The notes under the pieces were generated by a model. That model was given only the letters and a program-made list of their open reading frames with translations. It made no database searches and was not told where the DNA came from. DNA of 33,524 bases from Gemmatimonadales bacterium. GTDB taxonomy: Bacteria > Gemmatimonadota > Gemmatimonadetes > Gemmatimonadales > GWC2-71-9. Both the position numbers and the translations under genes were made by a program. The stretch spans positions 109,194-142,717 of the forward strand of contig DATAOI010000102.1 of NCBI GenBank assembly GCA_036265815.1, read 5' to 3'. The first letter of the stretch is position 1. Each line of letters begins with the position of its first letter. Positions 21,159 to 24,363 of this stretch are shown here, piece by piece.

Positions 21159-21787
21159 TGAGGACACTCCTTGGCATCGTGCTCCTGGCGTGCGTCCCGC
21201 TCGCCCACCTCGCGGGCCAGGCGGCTCAGCCCGATCCACTGGCCGGCCGGGTCAAAGGGTCGCCCAAGGCGCCGGTGACGGTGTACGAGATGTCGGATTT
21301 CCAGTGCCCCTACTGCCGGCAGTTCGCGCTGGAAACGTTTCCGGCCCTCGATTCGGCCTACGTCACGACGGGGAAGGTGCGTTGGGCCTTCGTCAACTTC
21401 CCCCTGACCAGCATCCATCAGAACGCCGTCGCGGCGGCGGAGATCGCGCTCTGCGCTGCCAAGCAGGACAAATTCTGGCCGGTGCACGACCTGCTCTATC
21501 GCCACCAGGATGTCTGGGCGCCGCTCAAGGAGCCGGCGGCGTTTCTGCTCTCGCTGGCCGACTCGGCCCACCTCTCCAAGCCGGCGCTGCTCGCGTGCGC
21601 CAAGGCAGCGTCGACCGATGAGGAAGTCCGGGCCGACGCAGAGGGGGCCAGCCGGACTGGCGCGGGGAGCACGCCGACGTTCTATATCGAGGGCGGTCTC
21701 TTGGTAGGTGCCCAGCCGCTCCCGGTCTTCCGGCAGGTGCTCGATTCCGTGATCGCCAGCAAGACCGGAGCGGCCGGGCGAAAATGA
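21158..21787 (+). CDS. DsbA/Thioredoxin_4-like periplasmic thiol oxidoreductase
   Basis: A 209-residue exported thioredoxin-fold protein. The signal peptide (MRTLLGIVLLACVPLAHLAG) is followed by the active site CPYC (C50-C53) in SDFQCPYCRQF, the DsbA-type helical insert, and the cis-proline loop GSTPTF. It resembles the DsbA/BdbD/Thioredoxin_4 group that forms or rearranges disulfides in the periplasm. The ATG overlaps the upstream lipoprotein stop (TGATG), so the pair are probably co-expressed and the lipoprotein may be a partner or substrate. Convergent with the CPBP gene; a 10-bp palindrome (GTGAGCTCAC, 21794-21803) lies in the 26-bp gap. Confidence 0.92.
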   Translation: MRTLLGIVLLACVPLAHLAGQAAQPDPLAGRVKGSPKAPVTVYEMSDFQCPYCRQFALETFPALDSAYVTTGKVRWAFVNFPLTSIHQNAVAAAEIALCAAKQDKFWPVHDLLYRHQDVWAPLKEPAAFLLSLADSAHLSKPALLACAKAASTDEEVRADAEGASRTGAGSTPTFYIEGGLLVGAQPLPVFRQVLDSVIASKTGAAGRK

Positions 21788-21813: not shown

Positions 21814-22572
21814 TCAGGCTACCGAGCCCGCCAGCGCGAGGAAGACGTCATACAGCGCGTGGGTCCACGCGGTGATCCCGAAGCCGCGCAGCAGGTACAT
21901 CCCGCTGAACACCACTCCCGCGATGGCCCGGAAGGCGAATGAGCCGAGCTCGAGCCGCTCGCCGTAGGGCCCGATGTAGTGGAAGGCGGAGAAGATCAGG
22001 GCACCGGCCAGGGTGGCGAAGACCCCAGCCGCGCCCGCACTCCAGCCGAAGCCGCGCCGGGCCAGCGCGGCGAGTGTGCCGACGATCAGCACGCGGAAAA
22101 GCAGCTCCTCGTAGATCCCGGCGCCCAGGGAGATCATGAGCTGGGTGGCCAACCCGAGCTGGGTCACTCCGCCGAGCCGGAGCGCCGGCGCGGTGAGGGC
22201 CAGCCCGTGCAGCAGCACGGCGGTGAGTCTCCCGACGACGATCCCGAACACCAGCGCATAGCCCACCGATTCGAGCGCCATCCAGCAGAACACCCGGCCG
22301 TCGACCGGGCCGGACGTCCTCCGATCGCGCCACACCAGCGCCGCGCCGGTGCCCACCAGCAGCGCCCCGAACACCACGAGACCGTTCCTCCCGCCGAGCG
22401 TGAGGAAGAGACTCTTGAGCAGCACGTCCGCCCCGTTCCGCACGCCGATCAGCGCGTCGTGCGAGAGCGTGAACGCCAGCGCCTCGTAGGCCACCAGCAG
22501 GGGAAGGGCGAACGTCAGGCTGTAGCGCGGCGCGCGGGAGGCGCGCCAGTAGTCGCGAAGGACGGAGGGCAT
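21814..22572 (-). CDS. CPBP family intramembrane glutamic endopeptidase
   Basis: A 252-residue polytopic membrane protein with about seven hydrophobic segments. CPBP/Abi (Rce1-like) motifs are intact: EELLFR (155-160), FSAFHYIG (H198) and WTHALYD (236-242). Family members are intramembrane proteases or scaffolds; substrate is unknown. ATG 22572 is chosen (TTG 22578 is the alternative); no normal Shine-Dalgarno sequence precedes it. Instead a perfect intrinsic terminator ends four bases upstream, so expression must involve read-through or a regulated leader. Two stop codons in tandem end the gene. Confidence 0.88.
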   Translation of the reverse strand: MPSVLRDYWRASRAPRYSLTFALPLLVAYEALAFTLSHDALIGVRNGADVLLKSLFLTLGGRNGLVVFGALLVGTGAALVWRDRRTSGPVDGRVFCWMALESVGYALVFGIVVGRLTAVLLHGLALTAPALRLGGVTQLGLATQLMISLGAGIYEELLFRVLIVGTLAALARRGFGWSAGAAGVFATLAGALIFSAFHYIGPYGERLELGSFAFRAIAGVVFSGMYLLRGFGITAWTHALYDVFLALAGSVA

Positions 22573-22576
22573 GGTC

Positions 22577-22604
22577 AAAAAAAGGGGCCGCGGTCAGCGG
22601 CCCC
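22577..22604 (-). terminator. Intrinsic terminator immediately upstream of the CPBP start codon
   Basis: On the minus strand GGGGCCGC and GCGGCCCC (22604-22597 and 22591-22584) form a perfect 8-bp GC stem with a TGACC loop, followed by seven T (22583-22577). Four bases later comes the ATG of the CPBP gene. It either ends a short upstream RNA or attenuates the CPBP gene. Confidence 0.85.
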
Positions 22605-22724
22605 CCCAGGTTCGAAGTGTCGCCCGGGTCTCAGCGTGCAGCGCTGTCTAGCGTCCGCAGGCGACCCTTGACTCTGTAGACAATGGATCACCTCCCTCGG
22701 TTGCAGGTGGAACATGGAATGCCA
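22577..22724 (-). ncRNA. Candidate leader RNA or small RNA upstream of the CPBP gene
   Basis: A predicted ~150-nt transcript runs from the promoter at 22731-22760 to the terminator at 22577-22604. It contains an 11-base perfect complement to the 16S 3' tail (GGAGGTGATCC, 22695-22685). An upstream CACCT could pair with it, and GTCGCC/GGCGAC and TGTCTA/TAGACA can form helices. Possible coding parts are a 17-codon frame from ATT 22684, an 11-codon frame from TTG 22683, and a 46-codon frame from ATG 22715 that ends two bases before the CPBP ATG. Existence is inferred, not shown; function unknown. Confidence 0.4.
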
Positions 22725-22730
22725 GGATGA

Positions 22731-22760
22731 ATTTTATCTCCACTCCCGCTCCACGTGCAA
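22731..22760 (-). promoter_or_regulatory. Candidate promoter for the leader RNA
   Basis: Minus-strand TAAAAT (22736-22731) matches five of six -10 positions. TTGCAC (22760-22755) lies 18 bp upstream as a partial -35 box. It lies in the 200-bp gap after the DUF4097 gene. Confidence 0.5.
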
Positions 22761-22811: not shown

Positions 22812-23690
22812 CTACTGAGGACGAAGGCGAATCGTGCCTTTGAACGTGCGCGCCGCCACCTGCGCCCCGCCACGCCCGAGGCTCAACCGAATCGAGTGCG
22901 GTGTCGCGGCGATCGGCCGAGCCTCGGCGAAGCCGTTCTCGATGGCCCCGACGACGCTCGACAACGCAAATACGCCGGATACCGACCGCGCGAGCAGCAG
23001 ATCGATTGCCCCGCTGTGACTGGAGAAATCAAAGATCGCACCGGCGGCCGGCGCACCGGCGTAATGCACGTCGCCCGATACCGAGCCGAACTGTCCGCGC
23101 AGAATCGCCGAGCTCGCGATGCTGAGCGTCCCGCCGATCGTCGCCGCATCGACGTCCTGCGGATCGCCACGGACGAGCAGATTGCCGTCGCCGGTTCGCG
23201 CCCGCACCCAGGGGGTCGCGACATCGAGATCGACGTTGCCGCTCATCGCCTGCACCTCGATCGTGGTTGCCGCTCCATTGAGACGCACACCGCCAGACAC
23301 CGTATAGAACCACCCGGACACGTCGCTGGCGGTAATGTCGCCAGTGACCGTCTTGAGCGAGACCTGACTCCCTCGGGGCAAGTACACCAGCAGGTCGGAG
23401 TCCGCCATCGGTTTGCCATCATTCCGATCCTCGATGCCGAGCTTCATCAGCGAGTCGTTGCCGGAGAGGTACAAGGCCTCGCCCTTGGCGACTCGCCCGC
23501 GGATGAGGAGCGAGTCCCGATCCCAGCCCACCAGTCGGACCGAGCCGGCGGCGTTGAACATCTTGACCAGCGGCGCCGGAGAAGCGTGGCGGGCACGAAG
23601 CACGGGGCCATCGCTTGCCCCGGCCTGCGCGCCCACCGCGCTCGGTACCGCAACCAGAAGCAGTATCGCCGACACGAATGGGCCTGTCAT
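22812..23690 (-). CDS. Exported DUF4097-like (adhesin-fold) protein
   Basis: A 292-residue secreted protein. The signal peptide ends near AVGAQA. The rest is a regular beta-helix-like run of short strands with alternating SG/TGD turns (LKTVTGDITASD, VQAMSGNVDLD, VRARTGDGNLLVRG, FGSVSGDVHYAG), typical of DUF4097/DUF4098 proteins found in operons with ECF sigma and anti-sigma factors. Molecular role is unknown. The reading frame stays open far upstream into the anti-sigma gene, but ATG 23690 is chosen because it opens with the signal peptide and lies 4 bp after the anti-sigma stop. It is the last gene of the ECF operon. Confidence 0.85.
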   Translation of the reverse strand: MTGPFVSAILLLVAVPSAVGAQAGASDGPVLRARHASPAPLVKMFNAAGSVRLVGWDRDSLLIRGRVAKGEALYLSGNDSLMKLGIEDRNDGKPMADSDLLVYLPRGSQVSLKTVTGDITASDVSGWFYTVSGGVRLNGAATTIEVQAMSGNVDLDVATPWVRARTGDGNLLVRGDPQDVDAATIGGTLSIASSAILRGQFGSVSGDVHYAGAPAAGAIFDFSSHSGAIDLLLARSVSGVFALSSVVGAIENGFAEARPIAATPHSIRLSLGRGGAQVAARTFKGTIRLRPQ

Positions 23691-23694
23691 GGCG

Positions 23695-24363
23695 TCAACC
23701 CGCGTTCCCGACGCGCTTGAGGACGTCCACCTTCTGCCGGTAGGAGGCTGCCAGTAGGCGTCGCAATGCGGGGTTACCTGGATCGCGAGCAATCGCCTCC
23801 TTGAGCTCGGCGATGGCCGCATCGACGACCCGCAAGTCGTGGTCAATCGCGACGACGGCTTCGGGGCGCAACATCGCGCGTCGCAGCTCGAGCTGATTGA
23901 GCAGCGTTTGCGCCTCCTCCTCGTACGCCTGCGCCGAATCGGCCACGGCGATGAGCGATGCCGTGGCTTGAGTCCGTGCCCCGGGCGCCGGGCGTCGCGC
24001 ACTGGTGCGGAGGCCGACGGCGATGACGGCGACCACCAGCGCTGCCGCCATCCCGACCGCGAGTGCGAGACGGGGTACCCGTCGCCGACCCCCGAGTCGC
24101 AGCGCCTGGGGCGGCAGCGGAATGACCTTGCTCGCCTCGATCCGCGTGCGGATCGACGGCCATAGCTCATCGAGCGGTGGCAGGACCGGGGTCGGCGCGC
24201 CGTGGACGCGCGTGAGGAGCGTTCTGATACGGGTGATATCGGCGACACAAGCCGCGCAGCCGCGCAGGTGTGCCTCGATGGTCGGGAGCTGCTCGAGCCG
24301 CACCGAGCCGTCGGCAAGGGCGTGCCGTTGCTCCTCGCTGAGATGCGATCCTGCGTCCGTCAT
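23695..24363 (-). CDS. Zinc-finger anti-sigma factor, membrane-bound
   Basis: A 222-residue transmembrane regulator. The N-terminal anti-sigma zinc motif is H32-x3-C36-x2-C39 (HLRGCAAC). A basic segment GGRRRVPR precedes one membrane helix (about 98-118). The extracytoplasmic C-terminal part is a helical hairpin (about 130-222, AYEEEAQTLLNQLELRRAML onwards). It should hold the ECF sigma factor inactive until an envelope signal arrives. ATG 24363 overlaps the sigma-factor stop by 4 bp (ATGA), tying their amounts together. The C-terminal helical domain is similar in style to periplasmic sensors, but the ligand is unknown. Confidence 0.87.
   Translation of the reverse strand: MTDAGSHLSEEQRHALADGSVRLEQLPTIEAHLRGCAACVADITRIRTLLTRVHGAPTPVLPPLDELWPSIRTRIEASKVIPLPPQALRLGGRRRVPRLALAVGMAAALVVAVIAVGLRTSARRPAPGARTQATASLIAVADSAQAYEEEAQTLLNQLELRRAMLRPEAVVAIDHDLRVVDAAIAELKEAIARDPGNPALRRLLAASYRQKVDVLKRVGNAG

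Follow-up and report, generated by a model that had tools for sequence, protein, structure and literature searches.

Introduction

In Shine-Dalgarno-sequestering switches and in engineered toehold switches, the ribosome-binding site and the start codon are held in a hairpin and a 5' part is left exposed. A predicted RNA in the window analyzed here (the whole 33,524-nt stretch of Gemmatimonadales DNA) appears to share the hidden ribosome-binding site and start and the exposed 5' part. It would differ from toehold switches in that its possible trigger is the end of 16S rRNA and the blocking strand is supplied by its own mini-ORF. Among the closest described RNAs is CC2171 (Rfam RF01867), a Caulobacter small RNA (sRNA) that likewise begins with GGAGGUGAUCCA-NUG-UCU, continues into a structured body and ends in a 3' GC hairpin. 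The two differ in peptide, body stems and phylum, and the Rfam alignment of CC2171 shows neither a mini-ORF nor the full helix that hides the Shine-Dalgarno sequence.

Two further kinds of RNA combine a short translated ORF with a terminator, as described in excerpts of the cited papers. In leader-peptide attenuators such as trpL/rnTrpL of Sinorhizobium, the ORF is followed by a terminator, and rnTrpL can also act as a separate small RNA (PMC10117765). The window RNA appears to share these traits and is unlike such attenuators in that its downstream gene is not constant, it has no antiterminator and its peptide is unconserved. Pos19 of Rhodobacter sphaeroides, likewise an sRNA, has a small ORF that is translated and a Rho-independent terminator; it differs in its length (219 nt), its ORFs (150 or 135 nt) and its RpoE promoter, and its authors report it absent outside R. 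sphaeroides (PMC5036791).

Published surveys, again as excerpted, bear on how often such RNAs are translated. Of 54 new small ORFs in Sinorhizobium, a third lie on annotated sRNAs (PMC10117765). Intergenic Caulobacter noncoding RNAs were untranslated with two exceptions (Schrader et al. 2014; PMC4117421), which counts against the explanation that we favor below, and 24.6% of Caulobacter coding sequences carry a Shine-Dalgarno sequence (PMC4117421). Bartonella BbsR14 bears anti-Shine-Dalgarno rather than Shine-Dalgarno motifs (PMC7717549).

Within the excerpts of open-access literature searched, CC2171 appeared only in the Rfam paper and in a Mesorhizobium table, and AGGAGGUGAUCC appeared in connection with YbeY. 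The motif letters and three mini-ORF peptides had no match in that literature, and the matches listed included nothing relevant on Gemmatimonas sRNAs and no natural 16S-triggered toehold switch. Neither the occurrence of this RNA in Gemmatimonadota nor its predicted self-occluded start was found described in the open-access literature searched.

Locus architecture

The locus comprises the following features, in order of transcription, with their basis:

22755..22760, minus strand: putative -35 element TTGCAC, 18 nt from the -10 element (sequence)
22731..22736, minus strand: putative -10 element TAAAAT (sequence; -10-like elements in genus relatives)
22577..22724, minus strand: predicted small RNA of ~150 nt (promoter position, terminator, conservation in genus and phylum)
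22685..22695, minus strand: extended Shine-Dalgarno sequence GGAGGTGATCC (complementary to the 16S rRNA 3' end)
22659..22693, minus strand: S1 hairpin (fold; same helix in two other alignments; shuffle test)
22648..22683, minus strand: mini-ORF TTG...TAG, 11 codons, MSTESRVACGR (sequence, relatives)
22619..22625, minus strand: GGGCGAC, predicted to pair with the S1 3' arm, GGGUCGCC, as an alternative (genus alignment; constrained fold)
22584..22604, minus strand: terminator stem-loop (sequence, genus alignment, fold)
22604-22597, minus strand: terminator 5' stem arm GGGGCCGC (sequence)
22596-22592, minus strand: terminator loop TGACC (sequence)
22591-22584, minus strand: terminator 3' stem arm GCGGCCCC (sequence)
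22577..22583, minus strand: terminator T7 run (sequence)
22576-22573, minus strand: GACC spacer between the T run and the CPBP ATG (sequence)
22572-22570, minus strand: CPBP ATG (sequence)
21814..22572, minus strand: CPBP (Rce1-like) protease gene, a neighbor outside the RNA gene (PF02517, E 3.4e-9)

The original prediction described an 8-bp GC stem, seven T, GACC and an ATG on the minus strand, and both the letters and the fold agree with it. Read from 22604 to 22570, the strand is GGGGCCGC-TGACC-GCGGCCCC-T7, then GACC and the CPBP ATG. The stem is perfect (8/8 pairs), and G-U pairs could lengthen it into the T run. In the ensemble fold of a 158-nt RNA, all eight pairs had probabilities of 0.995 to 1.0, and opening the 3' arm in a constrained fold cost ~15 kcal/mol (-65.1 to -50.4). 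This GC-rich stem-loop, with a T run directly after it, has the form of an intrinsic terminator. The pattern-based terminator scan of the window did not return this site, probably because the G-U pairs reach into the T run. Alignment of the region in relatives, which the prediction had suggested as a check, showed the GGGGCCGC/GCGGCCCC stem unchanged in 7/7 aligned genus members, each with four or more T after it. This terminator cannot credibly be put down to chance.

We placed the start of the small RNA ~7 nt past the putative -10 element and its end at the T run. Genus relatives carry the -10-like elements TAGAAT (L010), TACAAT (L013) and TAATAT (L014). After identical stretches were merged and ORFs of >40 codons were left out, promoter-like pairs with a score of ≥8 preceded 17/76 Gemmatimonadota loci (3.25 in upstream controls) and 48/105 other, mostly alphaproteobacterial, loci (4 in controls). 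The end of the -10 element clustered ~30 to 45 nt before the Shine-Dalgarno sequence in Gemmatimonadota and ~20 to 25 nt before it in the other loci. In the same sets, terminator-like sites were found at 18/75 Gemmatimonadota loci, compared with 1/75 further downstream, and at 38/105 other, mostly alphaproteobacterial, loci, compared with 3/95. The promoter peak and the terminator enrichment are together what a transcription unit of its own would show; that T-run terminators were recognized in only 18 of the 75 Gemmatimonadota members counts against the explanation favored here.

Conservation, promoter position, structure and distribution support one half of the original interpretation, a small RNA gene abutting the CPBP gene; the other half, attenuation of CPBP, fell away (see below). 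The terminator is best read as closing an autonomous RNA gene, which has a putative promoter of its own, and not as a CPBP attenuator. The gene is very probably a separate, translated and structured RNA gene, and the explanation that we consider likely is that it is a structured mini-mRNA (about 22724-22577, minus strand) that ends beside CPBP by chance. A tRNA/tmRNA search of the window returned none. An upstream ATG frame that overlaps the Shine-Dalgarno sequence (present in L010) was dropped as not conserved in relatives.

Distribution and possible relationship to CC2171

The region was found by DNA similarity in 17 of 102 family genomes, 8 of them (the window's own included) from the same genus, and seven aligned genus sequences share a largely invariant core from the Shine-Dalgarno sequence to the terminator. 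With at most one mismatch, the motif is present in 159/394 Gemmatimonadota genomes, nearly always in a single copy (125/287 high-quality genomes; 62/141 genera); the reversed control pattern hit one genome among the matches listed. Across the whole collection, the exact motif occurs in at least 119 stretches, mostly from Alphaproteobacteria and Gemmatimonadota, and lone matches elsewhere (e.g., one archaeal and one acidobacterial) look like chance.

No Rfam family reached its gathering score in the window. The window does match CC2171 end to end (model positions 1 to 159 of 159), but with 23.6 bits (E 0.0031) it stays below the gathering score of 75 bits; the best of 20 further Gemmatimonadota loci scored 39.8 bits. 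Subthreshold matches lay at the expected place in 11 of these 20 loci (E up to 1; best, 6.5e-5), so that the end-to-end match at the same place is repeated in relatives, and 5/18 loci scanned passed the CC2171 cutoff. These weak but repeated matches link the window RNA to CC2171 and would tie an uncharacterized alphaproteobacterial sRNA to a wider class. Rhodobacteraceae members (L026, L029, L031, L035, L044, L055, L073, L106 and others) sit in a conserved gene neighborhood.

Probable translation of the mini-ORF

From 22695 to 22678, the minus strand reads GGAGGTGATCCATTGTCT, which holds the Shine-Dalgarno sequence, the TTG start and the TCT codon. With the N of NTG left free, the start codon was GTG in 95, TTG in 21, ATG in 14 and CTG in none of 130 distinct stretches (L001, at the same place as L009, was left out, and identical stretches were merged). 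Across 186 tabulated loci, near-duplicates included, the mini-ORF spans 9 to 33 codons, mostly 11 to 26 in relatives; five loci have longer ORFs (L062, L068, L090, L102 and L138). Lengths are constant within clades: all members of the Rhodobacteraceae type have 18 codons, those of the Bradyrhizobium type 14 and those of the window's genus 11, with 14 or mostly 19 to 22 in other Gemmatimonadota. TAA, TAG and TGA interchange at these clade-constant stop positions, and the genus members end in TAG or TGA at the identical place.

The encoded peptides differ from clade to clade, and third codon positions are no more variable than first and second positions. We computed pN/pS in groups set by ORF length, without ORFs of >40 codons; because of this grouping, the stop counts in these groups are partly circular, and the Rhodobacteraceae type also came to 18 codons in a tally made without the length filter. 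Purifying selection on amino acids was not seen in 7/8 groups (pN/pS 0.87 to 1.20), and the value of 0.59 from the 6 sequences of the window's genus may reflect weak selection on the peptide there. The start and stop thus appear to be kept and the peptide mostly not, which suggests that translating is itself the function. A gene that keeps its start and stop but barely its peptide across a phylum would be unusual. In Azospirillum (L062, L090 and L102), the start motif opens 57- to 59-codon ORFs (MSHGA...LLTAGIA..C...) whose products resemble a secreted small protein, unlike those of all other members.

These data also bear on whether the RNA is instead a conventional noncoding, trans-acting sRNA like CC2171, with a Shine-Dalgarno sequence and mini-ORF that are incidental or protect the 5' end. 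Rfam lists CC2171 as an sRNA, the peptide is unconserved in most groups and the structures are strong, all of which speaks for such an RNA. Against it, the absence of CTG among 130 starts, the closed ORFs of clade-constant length and the interchanging stops point to real translation, and we regard the noncoding reading as unlikely.

Gene neighborhood and the rejected attenuation of CPBP

A second alternative is that the RNA is a CPBP attenuator or leader peptide, in which translation of the mini-ORF decides between termination and read-through. Its appeal lies in the gap of only 4 nt between the T run and the ATG in the window, in a mini-ORF with a strong Shine-Dalgarno sequence ahead of the terminator and in the presence of CPBP downstream, in the same direction, at 12/79 Gemmatimonadota loci by a CPBP protein search of the flanks (11 of them distinct, since L081 and L158 have the same RNA sequence). 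The RNA, however, is far commoner than this adjacency. CPBP lies divergently upstream of the RNA gene at 5/79 loci and was not found in the flank (mostly ~1.5 kb) of the remaining loci, bar a short, distant match in L174. In two members of the window's genus (L013 and L014), CPBP is missing, and the DsbA-like gene that elsewhere comes after CPBP directly follows the RNA. The mini-ORF also lacks a run of codons for one amino acid. The original prediction had proposed a search for an alternative antiterminator fold; none was found that competes with the terminator, which forms with a probability of ~1 and is costly to open, as given above. Because of gene order and fold, we rejected attenuation of CPBP, which we hold to be very unlikely.

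The four nucleotides before the CPBP ATG contain no Shine-Dalgarno sequence, and the position of this ATG matches that in relatives, whose starts lie a few codons ahead of a shared YWR. Expression of CPBP is possible by read-through, leaderless translation or a cryptic promoter. Convergent with CPBP, the window carries the DsbA-like thioredoxin gene (21167-21784, plus strand; PF13462, E 1.3e-27), which keeps its place next to the RNA gene where genus members lack CPBP. Upstream of the RNA gene, a DUF4097 (Toastrack) domain falls within the last third of a frame at 22815-24317 (minus strand).

Highly improbable is a small-protein gene with the 11- to 26-amino-acid peptide as its product, for even with a strong Shine-Dalgarno sequence, a conserved start, a Met-Ser N terminus and the lower pN/pS of the window's genus, the peptides vary between clades, the other seven groups show no such lowering and third positions are no freer.

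Predicted RNA structure and a possible switch

Returning to the structured mini-mRNA, its GGAGGUGAUCCA-UUG-UCU motif is complementary to the 16S rRNA 3' end, which reads CTGCGGCTGGATCACCTCCTTTC in other Gemmatimonadota (L222 to L224). The 28-nt 16S end had no match with ≤3 mismatches in the window's own genome assembly, probably because the 16S gene was not assembled. The duplex of the window RNA with the 16S 3' end has a predicted energy of -26.0 kcal/mol. GGAGGTGATC occurs 51 times in the window's genome (G000), and its reversed control occurs 0 times; this 10-mer alone is therefore not unique to the RNA gene, and other genes may use long Shine-Dalgarno matches.

In the predicted fold, the 5' arm of S1, which holds the Shine-Dalgarno sequence and the start codon, pairs with the ORF-internal UCAAGGGUCGCC (22660-22671). 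RNAalifold recovered S1 in three separate alignments (19, 15 and 7 sequences), in which GGUGAUC(C), together with the start codon in two of them, pairs with an ORF-internal GAUCGCC, GGAUCGCC or CAAGGGUCGCC; this internal arm resembles the 16S end GGAUCACC. The S1 arms hardly vary, so the helix itself shows next to no covariation. When compared with 40 dinucleotide shuffles (identical stretches merged; ORFs of >40 codons left out), the Shine-Dalgarno/start region paired downstream above all 40 in 6/8 groups, including 9.31 paired bases versus 6.78 (sd 0.49) in 59 CC2171-like sequences. A mixed group exceeded the shuffle mean only, and the 14-codon group went against S1 in single-sequence folds (3.38 versus 4.89 in shuffles), whereas its alignment favors S1. 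Averaged over 77 and 107 loci, again without ORFs of >40 codons, the bases right before GGAGG were mostly unpaired and GGUGAUC mostly paired; the start codon was mostly paired in the 107-locus set and mixed in the 77-locus set. Some comparative counts dropped rows with an unread base or a short flank. The Shine-Dalgarno sequence and start are thus predicted to be paired in the free RNA, except in the 14-codon single-sequence folds.

Forcing them open in the window RNA cost 13.8 kcal/mol (-65.1 to -51.3), and the freed S1 3' arm then paired with the downstream GGGCGAC, in which only the first base varies among the aligned genus members. A second helix, S2, is predicted in Gemmatimonadota whose mini-ORFs are longer; in it, the S1 loop pairs with RNA past the stop codon. 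True S2 partners paired better than in all 10,000 random reassignments in each of two groups, one of 19 and one of 24 sequences (L172, in which the motif was unmatched, was left out). S2 covaries and is present in most relatives; the window's genus, with an S1 loop of only 4 nt, lacks it. S1 and S2 cross, so that a pseudoknot would result if both form, and we infer that they may do so simultaneously.

Our best reading, based on these models, is a mini-mRNA or sRNA with a self-occluded start that would be opened by the 30S subunit. The proposed RNA would run from promoter through Shine-Dalgarno sequence, start and Ser codon UCU, mini-ORF and folded domains to, in the window, the intrinsic terminator. 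In the closed state, S1 would hide the Shine-Dalgarno sequence and start within the mini-ORF's own sequence. A 30S subunit might dock where the A/G-rich 5' part of the Shine-Dalgarno sequence lies exposed and displace the arm that mimics 16S rRNA; given an opening cost of 13.8 against a 16S duplex of -26.0 kcal/mol, docking and displacement are plausible. Translation of the mini-ORF, and not its product, would switch the RNA between a closed (S1) and an open state, with the freed arm pairing downstream in the open one. Where CPBP comes next, its expression would depend on read-through or on a leaderless mRNA. We put forward the 30S-triggered switch only tentatively. Sensing of free 30S subunits, if it occurs, would make the RNA a direct gauge of translation capacity.

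A more specific version is a natural toehold switch, present in two phyla and triggered by the mature 16S 3' end, which strikes us as rather doubtful. The 5' part of a 14-nt 16S complement would be exposed, and a built-in sequence nearly identical to the 16S end would hide the rest together with the start; through translation of a content-free mini-ORF, the RNA would report either free 30S subunits or 16S ends that have been trimmed correctly.

A stop codon in a hairpin loop was eye-catching at first and is not claimed here. It was found in 38/77 loci versus 30.8 (sd 3.8) with shuffled flanks, a signal weakly above shuffles, and the mostly alphaproteobacterial set showed no clear loop peak at the stop (30/107; up to 40/107 at other offsets). 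Identical stretches were merged in both tests, and the mostly alphaproteobacterial one left out ORFs of >40 codons. L204 and many other f5-type Gemmatimonadota loci carry a CGCGCCG...ATCGCGCCGGG-like block ~100 to 150 nt past the motif, after the mini-ORF, and this block is partly the S2 3' arm.
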